A program made the translations under genes and the position numbers. From contig NZ_AQFT02000001.1 in NCBI RefSeq assembly GCF_000364225.2, positions 682,001 to 746,000 on the forward strand: a stretch of 64,000 nucleotides of DNA, written 5' to 3'. Source of the stretch: Eubacterium plexicaudatum ASF492. Lineage in GTDB: Bacteria > Bacillota > Clostridia > Lachnospirales > Lachnospiraceae. Positions 17,244-49,925 of this stretch are shown in pieces (positions within the stretch are counted from its first letter, which is position 1; each line of letters opens with the position of its first letter). The notes below the pieces were generated by a model. That model was given only the letters and a program-made list of their open reading frames with translations. It made no database searches and was not told the DNA's origin.

Positions 17244-17948
17244 TTGAATATAGCCATATGCGATGACGAGAAAGCCATCCGGGAACAGATAAAGGAACTG
17301 ATAGAAAAAACGGGCTTATGCCCTGAACTTTTTGAAACAGGGGACAGCCTGCTTGCCGCTGGGAAGCAGTTTGACATTGTTTTCCTCGACATACAGATGG
17401 AGGGGACAAATGGCATTGAAACAGCGAAGAAGCTCCGGGAAAGGGACGGAGATACCATACTGATCTTCATAACGGCTATCCGGGAATATGTTTTCGAGGC
17501 GTTTGACGTGGCGGCGTTCCACTATCTGCTAAAGCCTATCGAGGAAGATAAATTCCGCGAGGTGTTCGGGCGGGCAGAGAAGGAACTGGAAAAAAGGAAA
17601 AGTAAACGGCGGGAGACGGTATTCGTAAAGACGAGGAACCGGAGCTTCACGCTGGAAAAAGACAGCATCCTTTATGTTGAGAGCAGGGCGAAGAAGGTGG
17701 AGATTCATACCAGAGAGGAAACCATAGAGGCATATGCCTCCATGAACGAGCTGGAAGCACAGCTTGGGGAAGGGTTCTACCGCTGCCACAGGGGGTATCT
17801 GGTGAACATGGCATATGTGGCGGAGTACGACAGTGAGAGCATCACCCTGAACAATGGGGAGTATATCTATCTGGCAAAGGAAAAGTACGGGGAATTTGTG
17901 AAAGCCTATATGCGGTATCTGAGGAATGGGGTGAATGAGGATGCTTGA
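17244..17948 (+). CDS. LytTR-family response regulator
   Basis: A 234-residue AgrA/ComE-type regulator. The receiver domain has acidic D7/D8, phosphoacceptor D49 in VFLDIQM, T77 and K97 in LLKPI. The LytTR DNA-binding domain (about 125-228) contains VFVKTRNRSFTLEKDSILYVES, FYRCHRGYLVNM and KYGEFVKAYMRYL. It starts with TTG at 17244. It overlaps the kinase gene by 14 bases and so forms a two-component operon. A direct-repeat operator lies upstream. The likely targets are the cassette genes downstream. Intact. Confidence 0.93.
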   Translation: MNIAICDDEKAIREQIKELIEKTGLCPELFETGDSLLAAGKQFDIVFLDIQMEGTNGIETAKKLRERDGDTILIFITAIREYVFEAFDVAAFHYLLKPIEEDKFREVFGRAEKELEKRKSKRRETVFVKTRNRSFTLEKDSILYVESRAKKVEIHTREETIEAYASMNELEAQLGEGFYRCHRGYLVNMAYVAEYDSESITLNNGEYIYLAKEKYGEFVKAYMRYLRNGVNEDA

Positions 17949-19383
17949 ATGGATCATGGGAATACTTGGCATTCCGCAGTATCTATTTGAGGGGTACTGC
18001 ATCCAGTTCTTTTTTGGCAGGTTTGCGGAACCAAAGCTGTGCAGGAGGAAGAAAGCACAATGGGCAGCCGGGATTGTATGGATTGCAATAAGGATTATCA
18101 GCGGATGGTTATTTCGTGAAACAGACAGTGTGACACTGGTTCTGGGGCTGATCTTTACCACGGCTGTACTTTTTGTTTTTTGTGTGGGCTGGTACAAAGG
18201 GAATATCCTGCTGAAAATATTCCTGGTCATTCAGTTTATCGCCCTTCGTGAACTGGCATTTTGGACTGGGTACAGTTTTCTCTATATTGGAAATGAATTG
18301 ATAGATGTGCTTGTGCGTGAGGCCGGCAATAGCATGGCGCTGGCAGGATATTTACCTGCGGCGGCAGGAGTGCTGGCCTGCCTGTCGGTGGCGCTTGTGG
18401 AAATCATAGAAGGCATCCTGCTCCTGGCTTCCATAAGAAAGATTGCAGGAAGTTATCATTGCAGGGAGAAAGGGCGGATGGATAAGGAAGTGGTCTTCTA
18501 TCTGCTCCCAGCCGTGGCGGGGGTTCTGGTTTCGGTGCTTGTGCGCCTGCTGTTGATCGCAGTTACGGATGGCGTCCCGGTGCTGCTGTATGAAAGGCAT
18601 CCGGCTCTGTACCTCATCATTCCCATGACAGCGCTTGTATTGCTTGGGGCTGTCGTGTTCAGTTTCCGCATTTATCAGAACATGGCGGCCCTGCAGGAAG
18701 AACGGGCGGAGAAGATCATACTGGAAAACCAGATCACGCAGATGCAGGGTTCCATGGTGGAAATGGAGCATCTGTATGACGGGATACGCTCGGTGAAGCA
18801 CGATATGAAGAACCACATGGCAGTCCTGCAGAACCTGATACGGAAAAAGTACAGCGGGGAGGATGAGGAAATCCGGCAGTATTTTGAGGGTATGTATCAG
18901 TCGGTGGAGCAGCTTGACAACAGGGTGCATACGGGCAATGCAGTCAGTGATGCGGTGGTGGGCAGCAAGTTCCGTTATGCGGGAAAAAAGATAAAAGGCA
19001 TCAAACTGGATGCGAAAGGTTTCATGCTTTCAGATGCCGTTACGATAAAGGCTTATGACATGGGAATCATCCTGAACAACGGGCTGGACAATGCGATTGA
19101 AGCCTGCATACGGATGCGTGAGAAACAGCCGGATGCAGGAGCCTATATCACGATCCGGTCTTTCAAGGCAAAGAATATGTATTTTATAGAGATTGAAAAC
19201 AGCTTTGATGGTTCGGCACTGTCCCGCAAGGATAGCGGCCTTCCCATATCAACAAAAGAGGATAAGGAGGTGCATGGGATAGGGCTAAAGAATATCAGGA
19301 AATGTGCAGTAAAATATGGCGGCGATTTAGACTGCATTGTAAAAGGCAATAAATTCACGCTGTCGGTCATGGTAAAAAGTTAA
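17935..19383 (+). CDS. GHKL sensor histidine kinase (AgrC-like)
   Basis: About 480 residues. The N-terminal half has roughly six membrane segments (to about residue 245), a cytoplasmic coiled coil, then the H-box SVKHDMKNHMAVL (His near 289), the N-box ILNNGLDNAIEAC and the G-box HGIGLKNIRKCAVKYGG, as in AgrC/HATPase_c_5 kinases. Such kinases often sense peptides, but no AgrB/AgrD-like peptide maturation gene is seen nearby. The start could be 17935 or 17941. It is followed 25 bp later by the DUF6033 cassette genes. Confidence 0.93.
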   Translation: MRMLEWIMGILGIPQYLFEGYCIQFFFGRFAEPKLCRRKKAQWAAGIVWIAIRIISGWLFRETDSVTLVLGLIFTTAVLFVFCVGWYKGNILLKIFLVIQFIALRELAFWTGYSFLYIGNELIDVLVREAGNSMALAGYLPAAAGVLACLSVALVEIIEGILLLASIRKIAGSYHCREKGRMDKEVVFYLLPAVAGVLVSVLVRLLLIAVTDGVPVLLYERHPALYLIIPMTALVLLGAVVFSFRIYQNMAALQEERAEKIILENQITQMQGSMVEMEHLYDGIRSVKHDMKNHMAVLQNLIRKKYSGEDEEIRQYFEGMYQSVEQLDNRVHTGNAVSDAVVGSKFRYAGKKIKGIKLDAKGFMLSDAVTIKAYDMGIILNNGLDNAIEACIRMREKQPDAGAYITIRSFKAKNMYFIEIENSFDGSALSRKDSGLPISTKEDKEVHGIGLKNIRKCAVKYGGDLDCIVKGNKFTLSVMVKS

Positions 19384-19616
19384 TCGGTAGGAAGGAGAAA
19401 AATTATTATGAGCATTTTAGGAGTAAACGGAGCTTTGGCGGTAAGCGATGAATAACCCACCGTTCCACAGGAACTTGATTTTGCTCTATAATGGTATCAG
19501 CTTGGAGCGGATGTCCACATCAGTTCTTGATAAAGTAGCCCGGCAGCCGTTTATTGCTTTTCCTGCGGCTCCACTACTGCCATCCATTCCAAAAATAATA
19601 ATCAGGAGATGATGCT

Positions 19617-20011
19617 ATGTCAGAGAAAAAGAAAACCCGCAGTGACCAGGAATGGCTGGAGCTGATCCAGGAATGCCGCACGAGCGGCCTGCCTGACAGA
19701 GAATGGTGCCGGCTGCATTCCATATCCATAAAAACATTTCATAACAAAGTTTCAGACCTAAAGAAAAATCCTGTATAATACCAGATCCGCAGGCGGCCCC
19801 ATCCAGACAGATGCACGAAGTGGTTCCACTGGAGCTGGGCAGCAGCCCTGTCCCTGATCCAGGCTGCGCTGCAAGTGATACGCTGCCGGTTCCAGCAGTC
19901 CATGCTGCCATCACGGTCAGGATGCCGGGGTACAGCATTGAAATTGCAGACGGTGCTTCAGAAGATACCATACGGAATACGCTTCTGGCGCTGGGGAGGC
20001 TGTGCTGTTAG
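19617..20011 (+). pseudogene. tnpA: IS66 tnpA, frameshifted
   Basis: It matches the intact tnpA of copy #2 except that the A-run at 19764-19768 has five bases where copy #2 has six. The frame then reads KKNPV and stops at about residue 53; the remainder continues in another frame to 20011. Possible explanations are a sequencing deletion, a real mutation, or ribosomal slippage on the A-run. Because this IS has a clean target duplication, loss of tnpA (if real) happened after transposition, or the protein was supplied by another copy. Confidence 0.85.
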
Positions 20012-20358
20012 GTGCATTGTCCAGTGACACGAAAGTTTATATCGTCACTGGATGCACCGATATGCGGCGCAGCTTTGACGGCCTTATGTCCCTGATCCGG
20101 GACACTTACCAGATGGACCCTTATTCGGACGCCCTTTATCTGTTCTGCGGCCGGAAAAGAAATACGCTCAAGGCCTTGTACTTTGACCAGACGGGTTTCG
20201 TGCTTTGCACAAAACGCCTGGACAATGGAAAATTCCAGTGGCCGCGGGACGCTTCGCAAGTAAGGCCGCTTACCCGCCAGCAGCTGCGATGGCTTCTGGA
20301 GGGACTCTCCACCTGCCAGCCAAAGGCGGTGCAGCCTTCCGGCAGGAAGGACTTCTGA
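20002..20358 (+). CDS. tnpB: IS66 accessory protein TnpB
   Basis: 118 residues, starting with GTG at 20002 and overlapping the tnpA end. It has the TDMRRSFDGLMSLIRDTYQ and FCGRKRNTLKALYFD signatures and differs from copy #2 by a single residue near the end (STCQPK instead of SICQPK). Intact. Confidence 0.92.
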   Translation: MLLGALSSDTKVYIVTGCTDMRRSFDGLMSLIRDTYQMDPYSDALYLFCGRKRNTLKALYFDQTGFVLCTKRLDNGKFQWPRDASQVRPLTRQQLRWLLEGLSTCQPKAVQPSGRKDF

Positions 20359-20646
20359 ACTTTTGTGCATTATGTAGAAATTTAAAAATTTATTTTCCAG
20401 CGCCGCAAGCCGCCAGGGAATGTTGTCCACGACGCTGTTTTTTTCCGGGATGCTGTCCACGCATAACGCAGCGCCAGGCCGCAAAACTGTGGATAACCTG
20501 CCTGAAAAATGCTGTTTTTAAGCCTTTTTCCTGTATTTGGCGGCAGTTTCCAGTCCGTCATTGTGCCTATCGCGCAGGTATGGGCGGTTTGATTTCATCC
20601 CCGCGTTTCCTTATAATGTAAGTAAATGGAAACGAGGAGGGCGCAC

Positions 20647-22359
20647 ATGCCAGTTAATATGGAAGATTATATCCGGCTGCTGGAAACAATGGTGGAGCAG
20701 CAGAAAATGCAGATACAGTCCCAGGACGCACGCATCCTGGAGCAGGAACAGACCATAGCACAACTGCGCGCCCTTGTGGATGAACTGCGCCTTTTAAAGT
20801 CCGGCCTGGAGGAAACGCTTGAAGAATTTAAGCGCCAGCTGTTCGGCACAAAAAGCGAGAAGACAAAAACTCCGCCAGCCAGTGCCGGGGATGAACCGGA
20901 AAACCCGCCTGCAAAAACAACGGTGAAGGAACACACCCGGACGAAAAAGAAGAAAGCCACGAGGGATGAGCGTTATGCGGACATCCCTGTCCGCGATGTC
21001 ATAATCCCTGTCCCGGGTAAAGACCGACTCTGCCCGTACTGCAATGCGGAAATGATCCTGCTTGGATATAAACAAGTCCGCACAGAGCTGCGTATAACCC
21101 CGGCAAAAGTGGAGCGTGTCCGCTATATGCAGGAAGAACTGATCTGCCCGGAATGCCGTAAAGACGGCGACGGCACAATCGTGCAGGCGCAGACGCCTGT
21201 ACCGCTTATGGCGCACAGTCCGGCGTCGCCGTCTGTTGTTGCGTACGTCATGTTTGAAAAAAGTTTTGTAAGCGTCCCATACTACCGCCAGGAGGCCTGC
21301 ATGGCCCAGCTTGGATTGGAGCTGCCGCGTGAAACCATGGCAAACTGGTATATAAAATGTGCCATGGAATATTTCCAGCCGGTATATGACCAAATGCACC
21401 GGCTCCTCCTGCAAAGGGATATTATCCATGCGGATGAAACAACCTGCCAGGTGCTGCACGAAAAGGGGAAAGCCGCGGAATCTATATCATACATGTGGAT
21501 GTATTTAAGCGGGAGCGACGGCCTGGCGCCGATCGTACTCTATGAATACCAGGCGGGGCGCAGCGGCGTTTTCCCAAAAGCTTTCCTGGAGGGTTTTTCC
21601 GGCATCGTGCAGTGCGATGGGTACAGCGGCTATAACCAGGTGGAGGATGTGGTCCTTGCCGTATGCTCTGCGCACTGCCGCAGAAAATTTTACGAAGCCC
21701 TCCCGGCAGAACGGCGGAAAAAGCTGAAGCTGCTGGACATAAATTCAGAAACGGATGTAAAAGACATCCCGCTTCCGGATCCGGAACAGATGGAAAACAT
21801 GATCCCGGCTGAGATCGGCCTCGTGTTTTTCAACAAGCTCTTTTTCATTGAAAAAGGGCTGAAAGGCATGGGCCCAGAAAAGCGCCAGGAAAAACGGCTG
21901 GAAAAGGAGGCACCTGTCTGGGAAAAGTTCTGGTCATGGATTGAAACCCTAAAACCGCTTGGCGGCAGCAAGCTGGAAAAAGCCGTCAATTATTCAATAA
22001 ACCACAGAGAGACACTACAGAGCTATATGCTGGACGGCAGATGCGAACTTTCTAATAATAGAGCCGAACGCTGCGCAAAATCGTATGCTATTGGCAGGAA
22101 GAACTCGCTGTTCCACACATCTGCGGCTGGGGCAGAAGCAAGTGCGCTTGTTTACAGTATAATAGAAACCGCAAAAGCCAATAAGCTGAATGTATTCCAA
22201 TACCTTTATGTCCTGCTGCTGTACATGCCTGAGCATAAAGATGATCCTAATGCAGTTAAAACGCTTCTTCCGTGGAGTGATTTTATCAAAGAGCGCTGCA
22301 CAGGACTGATCGATGTTGAAGCGATAACACCTGAAAACAAACCTCAATTGCCAATATAG
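20647..22359 (+). CDS. tnpC: IS66 transposase TnpC
   Basis: Full-length DDE transposase of about 570 residues, nearly identical to copy #2. ATG 20647 (MPVNMEDY) follows GAGGAGGG and is preferred over the in-frame ATG at 20626. The N-terminal coiled coil, CPYC/CPEC zinc motif and catalytic D-D-E (HADETTC, VQCDGYSG, SNNRAERC) are all present. It lies within the split DUF6033 gene. Confidence 0.93.
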   Translation: MPVNMEDYIRLLETMVEQQKMQIQSQDARILEQEQTIAQLRALVDELRLLKSGLEETLEEFKRQLFGTKSEKTKTPPASAGDEPENPPAKTTVKEHTRTKKKKATRDERYADIPVRDVIIPVPGKDRLCPYCNAEMILLGYKQVRTELRITPAKVERVRYMQEELICPECRKDGDGTIVQAQTPVPLMAHSPASPSVVAYVMFEKSFVSVPYYRQEACMAQLGLELPRETMANWYIKCAMEYFQPVYDQMHRLLLQRDIIHADETTCQVLHEKGKAAESISYMWMYLSGSDGLAPIVLYEYQAGRSGVFPKAFLEGFSGIVQCDGYSGYNQVEDVVLAVCSAHCRRKFYEALPAERRKKLKLLDINSETDVKDIPLPDPEQMENMIPAEIGLVFFNKLFFIEKGLKGMGPEKRQEKRLEKEAPVWEKFWSWIETLKPLGGSKLEKAVNYSINHRETLQSYMLDGRCELSNNRAERCAKSYAIGRKNSLFHTSAAGAEASALVYSIIETAKANKLNVFQYLYVLLLYMPEHKDDPNAVKTLLPWSDFIKERCTGLIDVEAITPENKPQLPI

Positions 22360-23121
22360 ACTATTTTACACCTAAACGGAACATATGTGGAACGGTAGGT
22401 TATTCATCGCTTACCTTTGGCGGGCGCATACCAGTATGCGAACAGGACACAGAAAACATCGGCAAACAAGGCAAGTTTTACGGAGCAGTTGCAGAAAACG
22501 GGAGAAGCGGCGGAAACATCAAAGGTGGATGCATACCAAAAATATCTGGAACAGAAATATGGCCCTATTATGGTTCGGAGTGTTGGAAGTGACCAAAAGA
22601 GCATGGACGCATTGGGAACAGGAACATACGGAATGAACAATATTGCGATTGCCCCTAATATTTTAGAGGAGATGGCAAATAATCCGGAGAAGGCTGCCCA
22701 CTATGAAAAGATCATAGATGATTTCTTCGCTTCGCAGCCTATGGTAAAAGCGCAGATGGCGGCAGGCGGGTTTGAAATCCAGTCCTATGGAGTGGTGATT
22801 CATCCGGACGGTACGGCGAACTATTATGTCTGCGGTGATGTTTCCCCGGAAAAGAAAGCTAAGATAGAGGCTCAGATGAAAGCCGAAGATGAGGAGAAAG
22901 CAAAACGCAAACAACAGTATCGTGAACAAAGCGAAAAGGCGGCGGAGAAACGGAAAATGGAAATGGAGATAGCCTATAAACGGCAGACTATGGAAGAAAT
23001 GCTTGCCAGTCGTGTAATAGAAACAGGCAGGGTTACATATGCAGGAACACCGGAGAGTTTGCGTTCTGCGGTTGCGGCTTATGAAATGAGTGCTTTTATT
23101 ACGCCGGGTATTTTGAATTAA

Positions 23122-23175
23122 CTGCTTGGACTTATTGCAAGGGAGCGGATTTAGTCCTGAATGACAGATGGGCTG
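23122..23175 (+). promoter_or_regulatory. Two-hairpin leader element, copy A
   Basis: CTGCTTGGACTTA, a short loop and GGGAGCG form hairpin 1. AGTCC-TGAATGACAGAT-GGGCT forms hairpin 2. The stem bases differ from the GGCTC/GAGCC of other copies but still pair, which is compensatory change. The next start codon (23209) lies about 34 nt downstream. Confidence 0.7.
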
Positions 23176-23208
23176 TGATACAAATATGTTTTGGAGCGAG
23201 GATTTATT

Positions 23209-23937
23209 ATGAGCATTTTAGGAGTAAATGGAGTTTTGGCAGGTGCATACCAGTATGCGAACAAGACACAGAAAACAGGAGCAAGAGGAACAAGTTTTAC
23301 AGAGCAGTTGCAGAAAACGGGAGAGGCGGCGGACACATCAAAGGTGGATGCTTATACGGAATATCTCCGGTCAAAGTATGGAAATGTGAGAATCCAGAGT
23401 ATCGGGAAAGACCAGCAGAGTCTTGACAGGGCAGGAAAGAGCATGAGTGGCAGTGATGTTGTGATTGCACCGAATATTCTGGAGCAGATGGCAAATGACC
23501 CGGAAAAGGCCGCTTACTATGAGGGCAAGATAGATGATTTCTTTAATGCCACTCCGAGGCTGAAAGCGTCTTTTGCGGCACAGGGGCTTGACTACCAGCC
23601 GTGCGGGGTGGTAGTTCATGAGGATGGAAGCGTCACTTATATCGGCGGCTGCGGCGATTCTCCGGAGTGTGTGGCAGAAGTAAATGCTATCAACAAAGCG
23701 AAACGGGAAAAAGAGGCGGCACAGCGGAAAGCGAGCATTGAGCGGAGCCAGGAAGCGGCAGAGGAACGGAAACAGCAGATGGAAATAGCTTACAGGAAAC
23801 AGACGATGGCAGAGGCTCTTGCCAATCATGCAATAGATACAAGCAGGGTTACATACACAAGTTCGCCGGAAACTATGGGTTCTGCGATTGCGGCTTATGA
23901 GAAAAACATCATGGAAGCGGCGGGCATTTTGAAGTAA
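23209..23937 (+). CDS. DUF6033-like cassette protein
   Basis: A 242-residue protein beginning MSILGVNGVLAGAYQYANKTQ, closely related to the IS66-interrupted gene. Other shared blocks are FTEQLQKTGEAADTSKVDAY, VIAPNILEQMANDPEKAAYYEGKIDDFF and a C-terminal Lys/Glu/Ala coiled coil before the VTYTSSPETMGSAIAAYEK tail. The glycine/asparagine-rich N-terminus is not a classical signal peptide but recurs in the neighbouring cassettes. ATG 23209 is chosen by alignment with its paralogue; an in-frame TTG at 23191 is also possible. I recognise the family as DUF6033; function unknown. Confidence 0.8.
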   Translation: MSILGVNGVLAGAYQYANKTQKTGARGTSFTEQLQKTGEAADTSKVDAYTEYLRSKYGNVRIQSIGKDQQSLDRAGKSMSGSDVVIAPNILEQMANDPEKAAYYEGKIDDFFNATPRLKASFAAQGLDYQPCGVVVHEDGSVTYIGGCGDSPECVAEVNAINKAKREKEAAQRKASIERSQEAAEERKQQMEIAYRKQTMAEALANHAIDTSRVTYTSSPETMGSAIAAYEKNIMEAAGILK

Positions 23938-23946
23938 AACAGGATA

Positions 23947-24000
23947 TGCCCGGACTTACCGTAAGGGGGCATGAGCGGCTCCGAATGACAGAGGAGCCGC
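23947..24000 (+). promoter_or_regulatory. Two-hairpin leader element, copy B
   Basis: TGCCCGGACTTACC...GGGGCA forms hairpin 1 and GCGGCTCC-GAATGACAGA-GGAGCCGC forms a perfect 8-bp hairpin 2. The loops keep GGACTTA and GAATGACAGA while stems change together. ATG 24034 follows about 33 nt later. Confidence 0.75.
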
Positions 24001-24033
24001 CGTTGAAATATTTATATCAAGGAGGATAATATT

Positions 24034-24657
24034 ATGTCAATTTCAGGAGTAACGGATTACACGAACACTTATGCGGCAGACAGGGCAAACGGGAGCAGTT
24101 CCCTCAATGGGGATTCGCAGGCTTACCTGAATAGTCTGAAGGAGAAATACCCGGATGTGAACATAACGGTGGCGGATTTCAAGAATGGGAAACAGGAAGA
24201 TGCCTATATGCTTGGGAGCAGGGGCTATAACAACATAGCGGTTTCTTCCAGCATTGTAGAGAAGATGGCATCAGACCCGGCAGCGGCGGCAAAGTATGAA
24301 AAAGTCTTTGCAGAAATGTCCGGTAATTCGGAACGGATAGAGAAGTTTGCAAGGGAGAACAATGACGAGATACTCAGTGCAGGTGCCCTTATTGACAAGA
24401 ATGGGAAAGTATCTTACTGGATGGTCGGCAGGAGCAGGGACACAATGGAGAACCCCGGCACGGTCTATAAAGAAAAGGTACAGAAGCAGATTGCGGAAAA
24501 ACGTGCGAAGAAAAAAGAGGAGGAAGCCTTAAAGGAGAAGAAACTGGCAAAGGCGGAATCCGTGGAAAAACTGATGGAGCAGATAAAGGCGGGAACAAGC
24601 CAGCCTGCAAAACTGCAGGAAGAAGGCAAAGGCGCACAGTTGGATTTGACCATATAA
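24034..24657 (+). CDS. Cassette protein, DUF6033-like
   Basis: A 207-residue protein preceded by AAGGAGGATAA. It starts MSISGVTDYTNTYAADRA and has LNSLKEKYPDVNITVADF, NIAVSSSIVEKMASDPAAAAKYEKVF and a long Lys/Glu coiled coil (about 145-185). The block NIAVSSSIVEKMASDP parallels VIAPNILEQMANDP in the DUF6033 genes, so it appears to be a divergent member of the same group. Function unknown. It ends 14 bp before the next gene. Confidence 0.75.
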   Translation: MSISGVTDYTNTYAADRANGSSSLNGDSQAYLNSLKEKYPDVNITVADFKNGKQEDAYMLGSRGYNNIAVSSSIVEKMASDPAAAAKYEKVFAEMSGNSERIEKFARENNDEILSAGALIDKNGKVSYWMVGRSRDTMENPGTVYKEKVQKQIAEKRAKKKEEEALKEKKLAKAESVEKLMEQIKAGTSQPAKLQEEGKGAQLDLTI

Positions 24658-24671
24658 CGAGGGAGGTATTT

Positions 24672-25223
24672 ATGATGCGTATAGGAAATAACAGTCAGGG
24701 AATCTGGCAGCTCTTTTCAAGGATGAACGGGAATAATGCTTTTGGCAGAAGTTCCGGTGCAGGCGGCAGGAATACGCTTGAAGACCAGCTTACCGGACAT
24801 AGAAAAAATTCCTACGGCGTGGAGGGAATGTGCGCTACCAACAATCCCAATGCAAGAAAAATCATCAAAGTATCTGATGAGATGAAGCAGCGTGTTTTCA
24901 ACAGCGTGAAAGATGCATTTTACAAATACAATGGAATGTCCGGCGATAATGAGGCGGAGTGGGAAGAAATGGCCCAGGCAAAAAACAATTATTATAAGAC
25001 ATTAAAGAAGGAAGACCGGGTAGCCGCGGCATGGACTTTAGGGCAGTTGGAAATAAGCATTGGGAGAAAGGTGGCCAGTGCCGTGAAAGAAAAAGTACCC
25101 GGATGGACGCATGGTCAGCCAATCCCGTCAGATGTACTGGATGAGATTTTTGCAGATGAGAGCATCACATCAATGGTATCCGGGAAATCCGGCACGGCGG
25201 AAGGGCTGGATATACAGATATAA
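24672..25223 (+). CDS. Cassette protein of unknown function (DUF3879-like?)
   Basis: 183 residues, starting MMRIGNNSQGIWQLFSRMNG after GGGAGGT; the start could be the second ATG at 24675. It is Gly/Asn/Ser-rich at the N-terminus (about 1-45), then helical (VSDEMKQRVFNSVKDAFYKY, AAAWTLGQLEISIGRKVASA). The end SGTAEGLDIQI resembles the LDLTI end of the previous gene. The DUF3879 link is from memory and uncertain. It is cotranscribed with the preceding gene because only 14 bp separate them. Confidence 0.65.
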   Translation: MMRIGNNSQGIWQLFSRMNGNNAFGRSSGAGGRNTLEDQLTGHRKNSYGVEGMCATNNPNARKIIKVSDEMKQRVFNSVKDAFYKYNGMSGDNEAEWEEMAQAKNNYYKTLKKEDRVAAAWTLGQLEISIGRKVASAVKEKVPGWTHGQPIPSDVLDEIFADESITSMVSGKSGTAEGLDIQI

Positions 25224-25256
25224 TCCTTACACCGTATTCCGCAGAGGCGCATAAAA

Positions 25257-25310
25257 CTCTGCCACTGCGGACTGCAAGGGTGCATGGGCGGCTCTGAACG
25301 GGAGAGCAGC
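25257..25310 (+). promoter_or_regulatory. Degenerate two-hairpin leader element, copy C
   Basis: It retains TGCGGACTGCAAGGGTGCA and GGCGGCTCTGAACGGGAGAGC, with the loops partly changed. It is followed by a GGGAGGTG ribosome site and the mini-ORF at 25328, not by a long gene. Confidence 0.45.
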
Positions 25311-25327
25311 GAAGGGAGGTGTTTGTC

Positions 25328-25351
25328 ATGAAGTTTGACAGGGGAAGTTAG
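25328..25351 (+). CDS. Mini-ORF MKFDRGS
   Basis: A seven-codon frame (MKFDRGS) with a GGGAGGTG site nine bases upstream. A near-identical one (MEFDRGS) stands at 26645-26668 in the same position, between a hairpin-like segment and the next leader element. The third equivalent block (near 26101) has lost the ATG. It could be a leader peptide, a signal peptide candidate, or simply a conserved repeat with a chance frame. Confidence 0.35.
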   Translation: MKFDRGS

Positions 25352-25370
25352 GATTGAATGAAGCAATAAA

Positions 25371-25425
25371 CTGCTTGGACTTATTATGAGAGAGCAGGGA
25401 TGGCTCTGAATGACAGATGAGCCGC
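25371..25425 (+). promoter_or_regulatory. Two-hairpin leader element, copy D
   Basis: CTGCTTGGACTTA...GAGAGCAG (hairpin 1) and TGGCTC-TGAATGACAGAT-GAGCCG (hairpin 2). ATG 25456 follows about 32 nt after the second stem, with AATGGAGGATTAAAAGAG between. Confidence 0.75.
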
Positions 25426-25455
25426 AATATTAAAAACAATGGAGGATTAAAAGAG

Positions 25456-26001
25456 ATGAATGTTAATGGAATAGGAGCAGCAGGATATCCGGCATGGCAG
25501 GGAGCAAGAAAGGCACAGCAGAATGCGGCAGGAAAGAGTTTTGCAGAGTCGGTAAACAATGTGGCAGGCGCAAAACCACATACATCAATTGTTTACATGA
25601 AAACGGATGATATGCTGTATTCAGGCGGCAATGGAACGGGATTATCTTTTTATATCAAATATGCAGAAGGTTCAACAGAGGATGACCCTACTGTGATTGC
25701 AAAAGGTGTTGATGAGAATGGGGATGAATTTGAGCAGACCATACATATCAATAAGATAAATCCCCGGAATGCTTCATTAGTGGAAATGACGGCTTTGGAA
25801 TCATATATGGGGGTGGATAAGAATGGAGGGCTTACATCATTACCGCCTGAAACCGGAATGATGGGGTTAAGTGACAGGACAGATTTTATGGATATGTTCC
25901 AAAAGCAGATCAGCGATATGAAACTGTTGAGCCAGAAAAAGGCTGTGGCATATTACCAGTACAGCATGCAGGCATATTGGGATTTCATGAACAAGAAATA
26001 A
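25456..26001 (+). CDS. Cassette protein with MNVNGIGAAGYP N-terminus
   Basis: A 181-residue protein, ATG chosen by GGAGG at 25441. The N-terminus MNVNGIGAAGYPAWQGARKA is shared with the next gene. The middle part (SFYIKYAEGSTEDDPTVIAKGVDENGDEFEQTIHINKINPRNA) is strand-rich, and the end is helical with KAVAYYQYSMQAYWDFM. Function unknown. It stands in its own cassette with the two-hairpin leader. Confidence 0.75.
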   Translation: MNVNGIGAAGYPAWQGARKAQQNAAGKSFAESVNNVAGAKPHTSIVYMKTDDMLYSGGNGTGLSFYIKYAEGSTEDDPTVIAKGVDENGDEFEQTIHINKINPRNASLVEMTALESYMGVDKNGGLTSLPPETGMMGLSDRTDFMDMFQKQISDMKLLSQKKAVAYYQYSMQAYWDFMNKK

Positions 26002-26142
26002 ATTCCATTGGTTGCATATCCCCAATAAGGCCACAGCCTGACAAGGCAGGGCAGACTTCCCCGGTTTTCCGGAAGATTGGGGAATCGGGGAGCAGCGAGA
26101 GGAGGTGTTGACAGGGGGAGTTAGGCTATAGGAAACAATGGA

Positions 26143-26197
26143 CTGCTCGGACTTACATCAAGAGAGCAGAGATGGCTCTGAATGACAGATGAGCCGC
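26143..26197 (+). promoter_or_regulatory. Two-hairpin leader element, copy E
   Basis: CTGCTCGGACTTACATCAA...GAGAGCAG and TGGCTC-TGAATGACAGAT-GAGCCG. ATG 26228 follows 32 nt after the second stem, the same spacing as copy D. The GGGGAGCAGCGAGAGGAGGTG block upstream (26077-26110) recurs at 26616-26636. Confidence 0.75.
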
Positions 26198-26227
26198 AAT
26201 ACTAAAAACAATGGAGGATTAAAGGAA

Positions 26228-26563
26228 ATGAATGTTAATGGAATAGGAGCAGCAGGATACCCGGTGGCAGGAAAAGCAAAGGTGCGTCAGGCGCAGGACG
26301 GCACACAGAGTTTTGACCGGGAGTTCATGGGAATGGCATCACAGACGCCTCCTTCTTTTGTAGGAAAGGTCTGGACGAAAGAAGAACTGATGCAGTCGAT
26401 TGATAAGCAGGTGCAGAGCAAGAAAATGTCCGTTTCCGATATGATAAAGGCAACCTGCATAGAAGGGACAAGGGCACGATTCCGTTTTGCGGGAGAAGAT
26501 AAGATATACACATTTGATGAATACATAAAGGAGCTTGACAAGCGTTCAAAGAATAATGTGTAG
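26228..26563 (+). CDS. Small cassette protein with MNVNGIGAAGYP N-terminus
   Basis: A 111-residue protein. The first twelve residues equal those of the gene at 25456, then the sequence diverges (VAGKAKVRQAQDGTQSFDREF). A helical middle carries KEELMQSIDKQVQSKKMSVSDMIKATC, and it ends FDEYIKELDKRSKNNV. The shared N-terminus joined to different bodies suggests a targeting or export signal, or a family assembled by recombination at the conserved leader. Function unknown. Confidence 0.72.
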   Translation: MNVNGIGAAGYPVAGKAKVRQAQDGTQSFDREFMGMASQTPPSFVGKVWTKEELMQSIDKQVQSKKMSVSDMIKATCIEGTRARFRFAGEDKIYTFDEYIKELDKRSKNNV

Positions 26564-26644
26564 GTAAAATGCCATAGGGCGGACAGGGCAGGCTTTCCGG
26601 CAAATTGGGGAACCGGGGAGCAGCGAGAGGAGGTGAAGGTCAGT

Positions 26645-26668
26645 ATGGAATTTGACAGGGGAAGTTAG
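26645..26668 (+). CDS. Mini-ORF MEFDRGS
   Basis: Seven codons (MEFDRGS) preceded by AGGAGGTG at 26629-26636. It parallels MKFDRGS at 25328. Too short to call with confidence. Confidence 0.35.
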   Translation: MEFDRGS

Positions 26669-26696
26669 ATAAAGTGTTTCTGTATGAAGGAATAAA

Positions 26697-26754
26697 CTGC
26701 TCGGACTTATTATGAGAGAGCAGAGGCGGCTCTGAATGACAGAAGGACTACCGG
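26697..26754 (+). promoter_or_regulatory. Two-hairpin leader element, copy F
   Basis: CTGCTCGGACTTATTATGA...GAGAGCAG is intact, and CGGCTC-TGAATGACAGA is followed by a degraded AAGGACTACCGG arm. The next ATG (26768) is closer than in the other copies. Confidence 0.6.
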
Positions 26755-26767
26755 AAAGGAGAAAAGA

Positions 26768-27709
26768 ATGGAGATTTCAAATAATCAATCTTATTATATC
26801 AATCCCAATACCAGACAGCTTACATCAAATGTGAAAAATACTGTAATAAAGGATAGAGAAGCCTTCAATGGTTCAATGCAAAACTTGTTAAATCCCGTAG
26901 AGGATTTGGTGCAGGTTTTGAAAACACCTATCAAGCTGGCAGAAAGGTCATCCCTGAACCGGCAGGGTAACTCTGTTGATATTGCATCCGGCAGCCGCAT
27001 TGCGGTAAATGACGGTTATATACTGACGGTGAAGCCGCAGGGCGTGGAGGTTTCTGGCGGGGATAATCCATATGACACGCAGGCATATTTGAAAGCGCAG
27101 AAGATGGCTGATTCGCTGGCTACGCTGCTACGAAACGCTTGTGGGAATATGCATACGGTAGCATATTCTCAGGAGGAATATGCCAGATGGAATGAGGGCG
27201 TTTCCGATGTGATGGGATATCTTGGCATAGACGCATCAAAGGATTTTACAGTCAACGGCATGAAGTACAGCAGGAATGGGAATGGGTGGTATGAATCACA
27301 GGCAGACAGTGAGGCGAAATCCGCTTATGAAATGCTGAAAGCAAATAACAGGACATACACCTATGCGGATGAAAGGACAAGAAACCAGATCGCATACATA
27401 AGCAATTATTATCTGGAAAATACCACAGAAAGTCTGAAAGCGGCATGGCAGAAAACGCTTGAAGAAACGGGCGTAAATCCATTCCCGCAGGGATTTTCAA
27501 GCACGTTGTCACAGCTTGCTATGGAACAGGACTTTGCGACAGGCGGGAATGATGATATTTTCGGCAGCGACCTAGAAAGCAGCATTGCGGCTGTAAAGAA
27601 GATCATAGAACGGCTGGAGAATCCATTAGGGGCAGTGACAGAGAAGAATGCAGAGTTTATGGAGGATGAAAAGACCTTCTATACGGCATTATTAAATAAC
27701 TTGGCTTAA
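26768..27709 (+). CDS. Larger cassette protein of unknown function (DUF4885-like?)
   Basis: A 313-residue protein, GAAAGGAG before ATG. The N-terminus is Asn/Tyr/Ser-rich (MEISNNQSYYINPNTRQLTS). The centre has IAVNDGYILTVKPQGVEVSGG, VMGYLGIDASKDFTVNGMKYSRNGNGWYE and helices to the end. I associate this kind of protein with DUF4885, but only loosely. It is the last gene of the cassette run and precedes a terminator-like hairpin. No signal peptide or membrane segment is visible. Confidence 0.65.
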   Translation: MEISNNQSYYINPNTRQLTSNVKNTVIKDREAFNGSMQNLLNPVEDLVQVLKTPIKLAERSSLNRQGNSVDIASGSRIAVNDGYILTVKPQGVEVSGGDNPYDTQAYLKAQKMADSLATLLRNACGNMHTVAYSQEEYARWNEGVSDVMGYLGIDASKDFTVNGMKYSRNGNGWYESQADSEAKSAYEMLKANNRTYTYADERTRNQIAYISNYYLENTTESLKAAWQKTLEETGVNPFPQGFSSTLSQLAMEQDFATGGNDDIFGSDLESSIAAVKKIIERLENPLGAVTEKNAEFMEDEKTFYTALLNNLA

Positions 27710-31480: not shown

Positions 31481-31630
31481 ATGAATGTCTGGCGAAAAGT
31501 GCAGCAGTTGCATGAGGCTATGAGGCATATCTTTGATAATGATACTTCCGGGTTTCCCGGTCAGTTTGGAATGACGGTGCGATACCGATGTGGACAGTGT
31601 AATGAGCTGTCACCCGTATGGATTTTTTGA
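31481..31630 (+). CDS. Small ORF, 49 aa, doubtful
   Basis: Encodes MNVWRKVQQLHEAMRHIFDN with a CGQC motif near the end (YRCGQCNELSPVWIF). No convincing ribosome binding site. A second 59-codon frame overlaps its end at 31618. Both may be remnants of an element backbone upstream of the recombinase. Confidence 0.3.
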   Translation: MNVWRKVQQLHEAMRHIFDNDTSGFPGQFGMTVRYRCGQCNELSPVWIF

Positions 31631-31927: not shown

Positions 31928-33589
31928 ATGTATAAGAAAAGGATAGTTGCGATATATGCCAGAGTATCGACAGAGCATGAGGCACAAATATCTGCATTAG
32001 GCAACCAGGTTCAGTATTATGACAATTTATTAGCCCAACACCCGGAATGGGAACTTTATGACCGTTACATAGATGAAGGAATTACTGGAACATCTGTAAA
32101 AAAGCGGAAGAATTTTATGCGAATGATGAAAGACGCTTCAGAGGGAAAGTTTGATCTTGTCATAACAAGAGAAGTATCCCGGTTTGCAAGGAATACGGTA
32201 GACACTTTACAGCAGACACGCATATTAAAGAAGCAGGGTGTTGAAGTCTATTTTACAGAAGATAATATTTGGACAATGAATGATGAAGATGGAGAACTCC
32301 GTTTGACTATCATGGCAACATTGGCGCAGAATGAGAGCAAAAAGACATCACTCAGAGTGAAAGCAGGTCAGATGATTTCGTTTCAAAATGCCGTGCCATA
32401 CGGAAATGGAAATATATTAGGATATGACAGGATTGATAAGCAGTTTGTTATCAACGAATCGCAGGCGGCTACAGTCAGACGTATATTTGATTTATACTTA
32501 GATGGAAATGGTGTCAGAAAAATACAATTTATTATTGAGAAAGAAGGTCATTTGACAGCAACGGGATTGACAAAATGGCAGCCGGGAAATATAAGCAGGA
32601 TTCTCCGAAATCCGTTTTATTGTGGAACGATAGTTTATCGAAAACAGTTTGTACCTGATTTTTTAGAACAGAAGAAAATCAACAATTTTGGAGATGTTGA
32701 TAAGGTAGTAGTGGAAGGCAGTCATACGCCAATTGTTACGAAAGAGCAGTTTCAAAAGGTTCAAGAAATGTTGGATGGCAAATCAGCATCAATAAATAAT
32801 AAAGGCAGACGTGGGAAAAAGGTTTCCAAAGATGTCTGGTGCAGGAAGCTGATCTGTGAGTGTGGACATACCTATAACAGAGTAGTATGGCATTATGGGG
32901 CAGGCGGACCGCAATATGCGTATCAATGTTACAGCCAGGTTCGTTTCGGCTCTGCAAAGACCAGAGAGAAAAAGGGGCTTAGCACTGAGGGGATGTGCGT
33001 TACAAAAATGGTAGCCCGCTGGAAGTTAGAGGCTATGGCAGATGTCATATTTCAGAAGTTCTGGAATGACCGAGAGGGTGTCCTGACTATTGCTAATGAA
33101 ATGCTGGATAAATGCTATGACAATGAGCAGGATAATGAGGCTTTAGAGAGAAAACACGAGCTTGAGCAGAAGTTGAAAACATGGGATAGAAAATATGATA
33201 ATCTCTTGAATATGCGTATGGCTGGTGAGATTGAAAAAGACCGTTATGATGAAAAGCGGGCGCAGCTCCAAAAAGAGCAGGAAAAACTCAGAGAGCAGCT
33301 AATGCAGCTTGAAAATGAGGAAGAAATTACAGATGATATTTACAAGGACAAACTGGAAGTGCTAAAATATGGGTTAGAGCAGGACTTTAACTTTTCAACA
33401 AAGCACATTCCAGAGGAAATCATAGATGCTTTCGTAAAGGAGATAGTGGTTTGCAGAGATTGTTTTATCTGGAAACTGAATTTCTTCCCGGATGACTACA
33501 AACTGGATGTCGAAGGCAGGAGCAACAATTACACAGTTACCCAAACAGAACTTTCCTCTGATACGTCACAGCAGCACAGGCGGCGATAA
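31928..33589 (+). CDS. Large serine recombinase of the mobilizable element
   Basis: 553 residues. Catalytic Ser14 in YARVSTEHEAQ, the VITREVSRFARNTVDTLQQ block, a recombinase domain (about 165-260), a zinc ribbon (CECGHTYNRVVW) and a coiled coil (about 400-470) are present. It is a paralogue of the recombinase at 8073 but with AT-richer codons, so it was probably acquired separately. It would catalyse integration and excision of the XRE-mob element. AAGGAAAGGCGA precedes ATG 31928. Intact. Confidence 0.93.
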   Translation: MYKKRIVAIYARVSTEHEAQISALGNQVQYYDNLLAQHPEWELYDRYIDEGITGTSVKKRKNFMRMMKDASEGKFDLVITREVSRFARNTVDTLQQTRILKKQGVEVYFTEDNIWTMNDEDGELRLTIMATLAQNESKKTSLRVKAGQMISFQNAVPYGNGNILGYDRIDKQFVINESQAATVRRIFDLYLDGNGVRKIQFIIEKEGHLTATGLTKWQPGNISRILRNPFYCGTIVYRKQFVPDFLEQKKINNFGDVDKVVVEGSHTPIVTKEQFQKVQEMLDGKSASINNKGRRGKKVSKDVWCRKLICECGHTYNRVVWHYGAGGPQYAYQCYSQVRFGSAKTREKKGLSTEGMCVTKMVARWKLEAMADVIFQKFWNDREGVLTIANEMLDKCYDNEQDNEALERKHELEQKLKTWDRKYDNLLNMRMAGEIEKDRYDEKRAQLQKEQEKLREQLMQLENEEEITDDIYKDKLEVLKYGLEQDFNFSTKHIPEEIIDAFVKEIVVCRDCFIWKLNFFPDDYKLDVEGRSNNYTVTQTELSSDTSQQHRRR

Positions 33590-47419: not shown

Positions 47420-49925
47420 GTGCGCCCGTAAGGGCGGCATAAATCCTACCTTGAGCAAGTAGTAGGTAAAAGTATCATGTGGCATATGCCACAAACCTAT
47501 CATTCCCCGTCTAACCCCAAAAGGGAAACCGGAGGGCAACCATAGCATGACGGAGGACACGGGGCGCTGAAACCTCAGAGGCGTCAGCGTGACGGAATGA
47601 AAATCCATGTACGAGGGTGGAAGCTAAACTGCTTGAATGACAGCCTGAAATCGGGAAAAAGACGTACTCCTGGCGTAGAGAGGTTGTACTCGCCAGTGTT
47701 CCTGACATCCGCATTGTTTGGCTATGCGGATGCTGATACTCGGAACAGGTTCAGCCACGGGAGAGTGGAAAAAGGCGAACGTCACACACTTACCGAAAAC
47801 ATGGAACGCTCATTTATGCCGTACTAAACGGGGATTGCCTAAAGTGGAATGCCATAAGGCTATGAAAACGCTGAAATGCGGGATTCTGAATATCCACCAC
47901 GGCAACAGAGTTCCCATAGTAGTCCGAGGGCGGGAAAGCCGTCTACATGGCGAAGGGGAACAGTGAATCAATTTCAAAACAGAAAGGATGGTGTGCGAGA
48001 CACTATGAGAAATCCGATTCATGTCTTGAAAAGCCTTGAAGAAAAGGCAAGTGTAAGAAACTACAAATATGAACGGTTGTACCGTAACCTGTACAATCCA
48101 GAATTCTATCTTCTTGCCTATGCGAACATTGCAAAATCGCAGGGGAGCATGACGCAGGGGGCAGACGGGCAGACACTGGATAATATGAGCCTGCCCAGAA
48201 TCAACCGGATTATCGAATCAATACGCAACAGGACATACCAGCCAAAGCCTGCAAAAAGAAAATATATCCCTAAGAAAAATGGGAAAATGCGTCCGCTTGG
48301 AATCACTTCTACGGATGACAAGCTGGTGCAGGAAGTGGTGAGGATGATTCTGGAAGCAATCTATGAGCCGACATTCAGCGACAATTCGCATGGTTTCAGA
48401 CCAAAACGGAGCTGTCATACGGCGCTTTTGCAGGTGAAAAGAATGTTCACCGGGGTCACATGGGTTGTGGAAGGTGACATCCATGCGTGCTTTGACAATT
48501 TTGACCACCATGTATTAGTGGAACTATTGCGGAAAAGGATAGCGGACGAGGCGTTCATCAGCCTTATCTGGAAATTCCTGAAAGCCGGGTATATGGAACA
48601 GTGGGAATACAACTGTACCTACTCCGGCGTGCCGCAGGGCAGCGGCATCAGTCCAATCTGCGCCAATATTTACCTTAGCGAACTGGATGGATTTATGCAG
48701 GAATACAAAGAAAAGTATGACTGTGAGCCGGAACGCAGAAAGACAACGAAGGAATACGAACGTGCGTCCAGAAGGTACAAAAAGGCACGGAAAGCATTGG
48801 CAGACACTGAAAAGTCAACTCCTGAATTGATAAGGGAATTTAAAGATTCCAGAATGGAGAAGATGAACCAGCATTATTACAATCCGTTTGAGGAAGGGTA
48901 CAAGAAAATCCAGTACAACCGTTACGCTGATGATTTTGTAATCGGTGTGATTGGTTCAAAAAGGGATGCAGAAAAAATCAAAGAGGATGTGAGAATCTTC
49001 CTGAAAGAGAGGCTGCACCTTGAAATGTCCGAAGAAAAGACGGAAATCACCCATGCCAGCAAGCCGGTGAGGTACTTGGGATATGACTTCAAAGTGATGC
49101 GCTCTAAAAGCATGAAGCGGTGTAAAAACGGCGACATGAAACGTGTGTGGAACGGAAAAGTATTCCTGTATGTGCCTAAAGAAAAATGGATTAAAAAGGC
49201 TATGGAGCGTGGGGCGATACAAGTCAAGCGCAACAAAGGCACAGGCAAAGAAACGTGGAGACCAATGCCGAGGAAAGACCTGATGAACCGGAATGATGCT
49301 GATATTGTATCAACATTTAATTCGGAAATCCGAGGGTTATATAATTTCTACCGCATTGCGGAAAATGTCGGCGTACTGCACAAGTATTACTACATGGTGC
49401 GTTACAGTATGCTGAAAACCCTAGCAGGAAAACACAGGACAAAAGTCAGTGCCATTAAAAAGCGTTTCATGGTAGACAAAGTGCTAAGAATCCCCTATGA
49501 CACAACAAAAGGGAGGAAATACTGTGAGTTTTATCATGATGGATTTAAGAAGCACAGCGACGGCTATGACAATGTGTCGGATGTTATGCCGAACTATAAG
49601 AAATACGACAGCAGGCATACGATAATCAACCGAATCAAAGCCGGAAAATGCGAAATATGTGGGGAGCAGGCAGAGTATTTATGTATGCACCATGTAAGGA
49701 CGCTGAAATCGCTGAAGGGCAGGGATATATTTGAAAAGAAAATGTTGGAGATGCGGAGAAAATCTCTTGCACTCTGCCCTGACTGCTTTGAACTCTTACA
49801 CGAAGCCAGAGAATCAAGGTGATTCATGGAAAGCCGGATACGCTGAGAGGTGTACGTCCGGTTTGGGAGGCGGCTCCCTGAAACCTGCTGGTGAAAGTCA
49901 GTAAGGCGCAGGGTGCCTACCTCAT
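47420..49925 (+). mobile_element. Group II intron with reverse transcriptase ORF
   Basis: The 5' end GTGCGCCCG is the consensus bacterial group II start. About 570 bases of structured RNA (47420-47995) precede the ORF. The 3' end carries domain V/VI-like sequence (about 49828-49920) and ends CCTCAT, an AY terminus. The exon reading frame of the coupling-protein gene confirms both splice sites. Length 2506 bp. Confidence 0.9.
47996..49822 (+). CDS. ltrA: Group II intron-encoded reverse transcriptase/maturase (LtrA-like)
   Basis: About 608 residues. RT domains are seen in PKKNGKMRPLGITSTDDKLV, GFRPKRSCHTALLQV, GDIHACFDNFDHHVL, GVPQGSGISPICANIYL and the catalytic YADD in YNRYADDFVIGV. A maturase X domain follows (about 420-540), then an HNH-like C-terminus (CEICGEQAEYLCMHHV, CPDCFELLH). 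GTG 47996 follows AAAGGA at a good distance; ATG 48005 is the alternative. It promotes splicing and retrohoming. Intact. Confidence 0.93.
   Translation, partial: RDTMRNPIHVLKSLEEKASVRNYKYERLYRNLYNPEFYLLAYANIAKSQGSMTQGADGQTLDNMSLPRINRIIESIRNRTYQPKPAKRKYIPKKNGKMRPLGITSTDDKLVQEVVRMILEAIYEPTFSDNSHGFRPKRSCHTALLQVKRMFTGVTWVVEGDIHACFDNFDHHVLVELLRKRIADEAFISLIWKFLKAGYMEQWEYNCTYSGVPQGSGISPICANIYLSELDGFMQEYKEKYDCEPERRKTTKEYERASRRYKKARKALADTEKSTPELIREFKDSRMEKMNQHYYNPFEEGYKKIQYNRYADDFVIGVIGSKRDAEKIKEDVRIFLKERLHLEMSEEKTEITHASKPVRYLGYDFKVMRSKSMKRCKNGDMKRVWNGKVFLYVPKEKWIKKAMERGAIQVKRNKGTGKETWRPMPRKDLMNRNDADIVSTFNSEIRGLYNFYRIAENVGVLHKYYYMVRYSMLKTLAGKHRTKVSAIKKRFMVDKVLRIPYDTTKGRKYCEFYHDGFKKHSDGYDNVSDVMPNYKKYDSRHTIINRIKAGKCEICGEQAEYLCMHHVRTLKSLKGRDIFEKKMLEMRRKSLALCPDCFELLHEARESR

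Follow-up and report, generated by a model that had tools for sequence, protein, structure and literature searches.

The matching of flagellar protein synthesis to export has been studied mostly on flagellin and FlgM, and the hag mRNA leader of Bacillus subtilis is bound by CsrA. The flg-Rhizobiales RNA of Rfam is likewise a structured RNA 5' of flagellar genes, in another phylum and at other genes than the element reported here. Here we describe a two-hairpin RNA element of 63 bases in the genome of Eubacterium plexicaudatum ASF492 (Lachnospiraceae, hereafter the family), five copies of which lie within one stretch of 64,000 nucleotides (contig NZ_AQFT02000001.1, positions 682,001 to 746,000; hereafter the window). 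We established a covarying structure, a place just 5' of the ribosome-binding site and a linkage to flagellar axial genes, and propose that the element is probably an mRNA leader controlling translation initiation of substrates of the flagellar type III export gate, with flgE as the ancestral target and the other, orphan genes that carry it in the family controlled as well. It places a short RNA structure before hook genes in records that range from Clostridia to a single Paenibacillus, and offers a direct way to ask how cells match the making of rod and hook proteins to their export.

A covarying two-hairpin structure

The pattern GGACTTA-N-GAATGACAGA occurred five times in the window and never in 100 dinucleotide shuffles, and ten exact copies were found in the whole genome (6.74 Mb, six contigs), where the reversed control pattern was absent. 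A covariance model built from these ten copies (R1) returned 20 matches at E<=1 in the same genome, and a second model (R2) was built from family sequences only (alignment A5). With R2, the five window copies scored 68.7-79.0 bits and were resolved as follows, together with the decayed remnant of a sixth.

23116-23178, + strand: copy 1, R2 match, 68.7 bits
23122..23148, + strand: copy 1, hairpin 1 with the GGA internal loop (R2)
23152..23175, + strand: copy 1, hairpin 2 with loop UGAAUGACAGA (R2)
23940-24002, + strand: copy 2, R2 match, 70.4 bits
23946..23972, + strand: copy 2, hairpin 1 (R2)
23976..23999, + strand: copy 2, hairpin 2 (R2)
25253..25312, + strand: decayed remnant of a sixth copy (R1, 14 bits, E 0.35)
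25365-25427, + strand: copy 3, R2 match, 79.0 bits
25371..25397, + strand: copy 3, hairpin 1 (R2)
25401..25424, + strand: copy 3, hairpin 2 (R2)
26137-26199, + strand: copy 4, R2 match, 77.1 bits
26143..26169, + strand: copy 4, hairpin 1 (R2)
26173..26196, + strand: copy 4, hairpin 2 (R2)
26691-26753, + strand: copy 5, R2 match, 70.7 bits
26697..26723, + strand: copy 5, hairpin 1 (R2)
26727..26750, + strand: copy 5, hairpin 2, the weakest stem 2, with two non-standard pairs (R2)

An earlier note on this DNA had described five clear copies and a degenerate sixth at 25257; the five were recovered where it had placed them, and the sixth survives as a remnant only, with no R2 match at E<=1. Hairpin 1, which in copy 1 starts at the base directly after the TAA of the upstream DUF6033 frame, comprises an outer stem of ~6 bp, an asymmetric internal loop (GGA 5', usually a single purine 3') and an inner stem of 2 bp or more, while hairpin 2 has a stem of ~6 bp closing the loop UGANNGACAGA. 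GGAC was present in 244 of 269 distinct element sequences, and 253 matched the loose loop-2 pattern (T/C/G)GANNG(A/C)(C/T/A)N(G/A)A, the freer positions of which were occupied among those 253 by A (98%), C (88%), A (79%) and G (99%).

Three alignments were compared with shuffled controls: A5 (42 sequences), A8 (56 distinct rows from outside the family) and A11 (79 distinct further rows), the latter two being aligned to R2 and therefore biased towards its structure. Paired cells within the helices reached 97.2% in A5 (78.7% shuffled), 97.6% in A8 (65.2%) and 95.2% in A11 (63.0%), with covariation scores of 0.665, 0.868 and 0.829 against 0.297, 0.237 and 0.248, respectively. Sliding the pairing partners by 1-3 columns reduced the paired cells from 95-98% to 32-53%. 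Both hairpins thus covary strongly in all three alignments, extending the earlier observation that stem 2 keeps its pairing while its bases change. Double-sided pair changes were unremarkable, being reached by 145 of 500 shuffles for A8 and 187 of 500 for A11, as were further pair types in A8 (170 of 500). Single-sequence folding of the five copies was weak (z 0.04, -2.42, -1.20, -1.00 and -0.83), and the minimum-energy fold departed from the model in copy 1 (both hairpins) and copy 5 (hairpin 2); the support for the structure comes from the comparison of sequences.

The element does not lie mainly inside genes, since only 10 of 267 distinct copies fell wholly within a same-strand frame of at least 100 codons and 19 within an opposite-strand one. 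Hairpin 2 ended 31-34 nt before the start codon in four window copies and 17 nt before it in the fifth. In the wider set the median distance was 31 nt for axial genes (interquartile range 25-36, range 1-132) and 26 nt for other genes with a start within 60 nt, the latter with modes at ~10-14 and 25-34 nt; the near-constant spacing proposed earlier therefore describes four window copies, and neither the fifth nor the wider set. At a further copy in the genome (C1:340318-340380, locus L016; L and G numbers denote our loci and genomes), no start codon was found 3', where a terminator-like hairpin and T run stand. With covarying helices, a place 5' of start codons and a presence common to homologous operons, the element is a structured cis-regulatory leader, and the description of a structured 5' leader in the earlier note is strongly supported. 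No Rfam 15 family matched the element at the gathering threshold in the window or in 20 family loci, and loose scans gave sub-threshold matches only (6 in the window stretch, 2 in 20 flgE/flgG leaders).

Distribution and target genes

The covariance-model searches that the earlier note had proposed found the element in many Firmicutes genomes. R1 detected it in 28 of 200 genomes drawn from the family, and R2 in 135 of 396 family genomes, 54 of 243 genomes of the class draw (6 of these 54 within the family) and 37 of 199 of the phylum draw (2 of these 37 within the family). The 267 distinct copies comprised 93 from outside the family and 174 from within it. Outside the family, the start of an axial protein (NNIANVN-type region) lay within 90 nt 3' in 89 of the 93, nearly all FlgE-like, with FlgG-like starts at, for example, L107, L108, L115, L121, L122, L165 and L167 and a FlgK-like start at L140; these calls rest on N-terminal sequence, and only the FlgE of E. 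plexicaudatum was run against NCBIfam. By reading, the four exceptions were an orphan (L079), a miscalled frame (L092), a contig end (L147) and a marginal match (L377, in G492). Within the family, 56 of the 174 copies preceded axial genes, 92 had the start of another gene within 60 nt, 11 lay further off and 15 had no start within 220 nt. The label of cassette leader in the earlier note is therefore too narrow, because outside the family the element stands 5' of flgE. Ancestrally, the target was probably flgE (hook), in some cases flgG or flgK.

In E. plexicaudatum itself the gene order is flgD, TIGR02530, the element and flgE, followed by motA, fliM, fliP and flhA. Among named records, at least 120 stretches carried the flgE type, including Moorella stamsii, Acetivibrio mesophilus and Desulfotruncus arcticus, with Konateibacter massiliensis, Mobilitalea sibirica and Paenibacillus apiarius also among the matches listed. 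A strict regular expression identified 57 of the 80 listed loci as hook genes, and by reading 79 had axial-type starts (L165 after frame correction) and one was cut off. Carriage followed the flagellum: in the class draw, 52 of 100 FlhA-positive genomes had the element compared to 2 of 143 FlhA-negative ones, namely G490, with the element at flgE (L087), and G492 (E 0.0098). Searching 40 of the 48 other FlhA-positive genomes with greater sensitivity added 11 copies at E<=2.4e-4, each 5' of a FlgE-like start, bringing the count to 63 of 100; weaker matches (E 0.01 to 1) were mostly away from flgE.

In IMG/VR viral contigs, 54 pattern loci were found, 52 of one pattern, which is approximately the chance level by a rough estimate, and 2 of another. 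Model-supported viral copies (E<=0.01) were confined to two contigs (L451 and L463), both labelled viral, which have a common array with three and four element copies, respectively. This array may be prophage cargo or host flank.

Orphan proteins as candidate export cargo

In the family, many orphan genes are tied to the flagellar system by the 92 copies that have a non-axial start no more than 60 nt away. Among 83 orphan proteins scanned, 15 matched DUF6033, 2 weakly matched DUF5601 and the rest had no match. The gate recognition motif reportedly takes an F-x-x-x-hydrophobic form (Evans 2013), and F-x-x-x-[LIVMF] was present within residues 16-60 of 44 of 63 non-redundant orphans, mostly from residue 28-36, against 16.6 in shuffled sequences (maximum 26 in 500 shuffles); in the control segment, residues 61-105, the count was 18 of 57 against 13.0. 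Small hydrophobic residues at the orphan N-terminus were read by eye. Early flagellar subunits require, according to PMC8983047, small hydrophobic residues at the N-terminus and, no nearer to it than about 24-30 residues, a gate recognition motif. The orphan proteins look like candidate cargo of the flagellar export machine, and the predicted consequence is that their products leave through the flagellar gate. Structure prediction for DUF6033 was not informative (predicted local distance difference test, pLDDT, 68.3; best PDB match E 0.14, probability 0.11), and no description of DUF6033, DUF3879 or TIGR02530 was found in the open-licence literature.

Complementarity to the Shine-Dalgarno region

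Hairpin 1 carries GGACCU, which is complementary to AGGUC. Across loci L079-L245 and L305, GGAGG followed by UC preceded 95 of 131 element-bearing axial genes, a set found mostly through the GGACC pattern, compared to 3 of 327 other genes in the same loci and 31% of the 13 axial genes that the script scored as having no element. Among the model-found leaders, GGUC stood 5' of 43 of 86 FlgE-like starts (25 of 45 families) and 2 of 9 FlgG-like starts. Duplexes between the native loop 1 and the Shine-Dalgarno region of hook leaders scored z -5.5 against permuted pairs, with controls of z -1.0 (reversed loop) and z -0.6 (reversed Shine-Dalgarno), and short-spaced orphans gave z -2.5.

These patterns suggest that, in the flgE form, an alternative pairing masks the Shine-Dalgarno sequence. 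Hairpin 1 would release its GGACC strand from the short inner pairing, and the freed strand would pair with the extended Shine-Dalgarno sequence GGAGGUC, or with GAAAGG in the short-spaced orphan form, masking the Shine-Dalgarno sequence in either case. The GGA internal loop and the loop of hairpin 2 could together form the docking site for a factor that shifts the masking balance. Translation of the upstream frame, which at flgE is TIGR02530, would end with the ribosome on hairpin 1, a position from which it could couple both genes, and the TIGR02530 protein would be the most attractive partner. For the window copies, initiation control is proposed from their position only.

Candidate sigma-28 promoters (TAAA-N13-17-CCGATA) 5' of elements were found in 4 of 114 orphan leaders (0.17 in shuffled sequences) and 1 of 73 hook leaders (0.07), and two looser forms in 5 and 8 of 114 orphan leaders (1.2 each shuffled); such promoters were set aside as a general feature, being confined to this minority. 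Separately, a second hairpin leader (AAGGAYGGC-like start, hairpin and T run) was seen 0-40 nt 5' of the element at L046, L263, L270, L273, L280, L285 and L328, with a sigma-28-like CCGATAT 5' of it at L270, L280 and L285. Of 265 leaders, a script matched it in 10, among them three (L061, L019 and L259) that look coding, and L046 gave no Rfam gathering match to it. This second leader could be a terminator or a CsrA-type site.

TIGR02530 as a candidate partner

TIGR02530 was present in 40 of 40 element-positive compared to 16 of 25 element-negative flagellated genomes (p 6.4e-5, uncorrected for kinship; several of the nine genomes without it are kin), and none of 14 control genomes, B. subtilis included, gave a match to it. 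In 120 loci, 110 had an upstream frame, counted as TIGR02530 by its C-terminus, and in 103 of these 110 the stop fell within -6 to +1 nt of hairpin 1. F37 is invariant and L41 nearly so. The predicted fold has a good core, beta-alpha-alpha-beta-beta-beta, an order we take to be that of a RelE-like domain. A fold search against PDB gave no significant match, the best being 5i4q_A, a contact-dependent inhibition toxin (E 0.36), and similarity to DUF4258 fell below the cut-off in three of five TIGR02530 proteins (E 0.011, 0.016 and 0.86) and was absent in two. A RelE-like RNA-binding fold is only hinted at by the predicted model. FlbD was also considered as a partner and is uninformative, because it is present in 63 of the 65 flagellated genomes.

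TIGR02530 is the leading candidate partner of the element. Its export-signal-like N-terminus raises the speculative idea that its cellular level could report an open export gate. The fullest version of this idea, which we advance tentatively and rate as rather doubtful, is that the element tags the mRNAs of rod/hook-class substrates and is read by TIGR02530, a predicted exported RNA-binding regulator that would build up once the gate closes or switches, shutting off hook and orphan translation. If so, it would be a hook-stage, RNA-level counterpart of FlgM, the Lachnospiraceae would have reused the tag for export-coupled control of an orphan family, and the flagellar gate would serve as a general secretion route.

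Several observations weigh against control of initiation at export substrates. Loop-Shine-Dalgarno pairing had no support in window-type copies (GGACUUA, long spacing; z -0.4), and 43 of 86 FlgE-like leaders had no GGUC. Loop 2 also scored z -2.8 against the Shine-Dalgarno region of hook leaders, so relatedness contributes part of such scores. A compensatory loop-Shine-Dalgarno change was found only in three leaders of one family (L045, L281 and L283, GGCCC with GGAGGGU), while L321 and L390 have GGCCC without one. On the protein side, a single-linkage BLAST cluster takes in 70 of 81 orphans, the export-motif count thus including kin, and the motif is therefore a conserved feature of one divergent superfamily rather than 44 independent cases. 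The position of TIGR02530 next to the element may reflect no more than operon order, and its fold showed no significant match to RNA-acting proteins.

Alternative readings

A small-molecule riboswitch would have the two loops dock as a ligand pocket, with the alternative pairing of hairpin 1 and the Shine-Dalgarno sequence as its platform. Two helices, conserved loops (the loop-2 pattern in 253 of 269) and complementarity to the Shine-Dalgarno region do give the element the look of an aptamer with a platform. We nevertheless consider a riboswitch unlikely, with only ~14 base pairs, no Rfam match and targets outside the family that are almost always axial flagellar genes (89 of 93).

Since the genes that follow it code for proteins of the rod, hook and hook junction, or for orphans whose N-termini look export-like, the element might instead be an mRNA address label that brings the message to the export apparatus for synthesis beside the gate, without control of initiation. 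The conserved Shine-Dalgarno complementarity argues for initiation control, and flgD, whose product is likewise exported early, lacks an element in the E. plexicaudatum stretch L305, where the single model match lies before flgE; an address label is accordingly quite improbable.

The earlier note had considered the exposed GGA compatible with CsrA-type binding, and CsrA, with or without FliW, could block translation by binding the GGA of hairpin 1 together with that of the Shine-Dalgarno sequence, in the manner of the B. subtilis hag and Campylobacter jejuni flaA leaders. This has attractions: the GGA itself was borne out (GGAC in 244 of 269 distinct sequences), csrA was present in 51 of 54 element-positive class genomes, and flgE mRNA is listed at 68.2x and 7.1x (column meaning uncertain) in a C. 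jejuni CsrA co-purification table of PMC4894983. CsrA target leaders, in that paper and more generally, carry GGA in an apical loop, usually as ANGGA. Here the GGA lies between the outer and inner stems of hairpin 1, there is no A two bases 5' as at the usual CsrA site, the base directly 5' is nearly always C or U in the leaders listed (A in L114), and loop 2 has no GGA. Two complete, single-contig genomes (G504 and G581) keep the element 5' of flgE (L395 and L400) without detectable csrA or fliW, and CsrA is therefore unlikely as a required partner. The element is also kept without csrA in the drafts G445, G605, G560 and G578. Among flagellated class genomes, it was found in 57 of 89 csrA-positive and 6 of 11 csrA-negative genomes (Fisher p 0.53; 8 csrA-positive genomes were left out of the sensitive re-search), and the count before that search leaned the other way (50 of 89 and 2 of 11). 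Overall, we judge a CsrA target to be a slim prospect.

Passive spread of a functionless intergenic repeat with cassette duplication could draw on the several E. plexicaudatum copies that sit among similar genes, on the copy at C1:340318 with only a terminator-like hairpin 3' of it and on the 15 of 174 family copies without a start within 220 nt, and is very improbable given the covarying stems, conserved loops and starts within 60 nt of 92 copies at non-axial genes, which indicate selection.

Genes around the window copies

The genes of the array around the window copies are as follows.

17244..19383, + strand: genes for a LytTR response regulator and a GHKL sensor kinase, at the start of the cassette array (Pfam)
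20002-20358: TnpB of an IS66-type insertion
20626-22359: TnpC of the same insertion
23209..23937, + strand: DUF6033 gene under copy 1, start codon picked by hand (Pfam PF19498, E 3.1e-33, frame 23191-23937)
24034..24657, + strand: DUF6033 gene under copy 2 (Pfam PF19498, E 3.4e-36)
24672..25223, + strand: DUF3879 gene with no element of its own (Pfam PF12995, E 7.9e-16)
25456..26001, + strand: orphan under copy 3 (no Pfam or NCBIfam family), N-terminus MNVNGIG, F-A-E-S-V starting at residue 29
26228..26563, + strand: orphan under copy 4 (no Pfam or NCBIfam family)
26768..27709, + strand: orphan under copy 5 (no Pfam or NCBIfam family)

At 19408-23121, the array's first DUF6033 gene is apparently broken after ~11 codons by the IS66-type insertion, and the AgrC-like GHKL sensor kinase gene stops just 5' of this DUF6033 gene. 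A similar kinase end, by sequence resemblance only, lies 5' of a DUF6033-like or orphan gene at L001, L007 and L008 in the same genome. This adjacency suggests that the cassettes may be under peptide-signal control. A tiny conserved frame, M(E/K)(F/L)DRG(S/G) followed by a stop, was seen in the window at 25328-25351 and 26645-26668 and at L008, L021, L247, L248, L249, L252 and L257, lying 25-34 nt 5' of GGACTT in 9 of 10 distinct occurrences; its stop falls near hairpin 1, paralleling that of TIGR02530 at flgE. Elsewhere in the window, an Rfam pemK RNA match (31536-31591, 43.8 bits) lies 5' of a serine recombinase gene (31928-33589), and a group II intron, with a reverse transcriptase/maturase gene and an Rfam intron match, occupies 47876-49925.

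Comparison with known systems

No description of an flgE RNA leader motif in Clostridia was found in the open-licence literature, and a term search of two RNA-discovery papers (PMC8632094 and PMC6429828) returned neither flagell, flgE, hook nor motility. In kind the element is a structured 5' leader, and its targets, loops and spread as a family appear new. The CsrA-bound flagellin leaders, such as C. jejuni flaA (PMC4894983), resemble it in having adjacent hairpins and GGA 5' of a flagellar gene, and in translation-level control coupled to assembly state, which for the element is proposed. They differ in that their targets are flagellin rather than hook and rod genes, whereas the element presents GGA in one hairpin only, in an internal loop, has none in loop 2 and is kept without detectable csrA and fliW. 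Unlike the flg-Rhizobiales RNA, with which it has in common a structured form 5' of flagellar genes, the element matched no Rfam family, also at loose thresholds (window stretch and 20 leaders). Shine-Dalgarno-masking switches, such as preQ1-type riboswitches and ribosomal protein leaders, similarly contain a leader strand complementary to the Shine-Dalgarno region, but have other target genes and another structure, and the element has no known ligand or protein. In logic, a parallel would be the FlgM-sigma28 and Hag-FliW-CsrA checkpoints, in which a protein that is itself exported signals the state of the gate and thereby adjusts the making of substrates; the element would apply such logic to rod/hook-class genes through RNA, with a hypothetical reporter protein, possibly TIGR02530.

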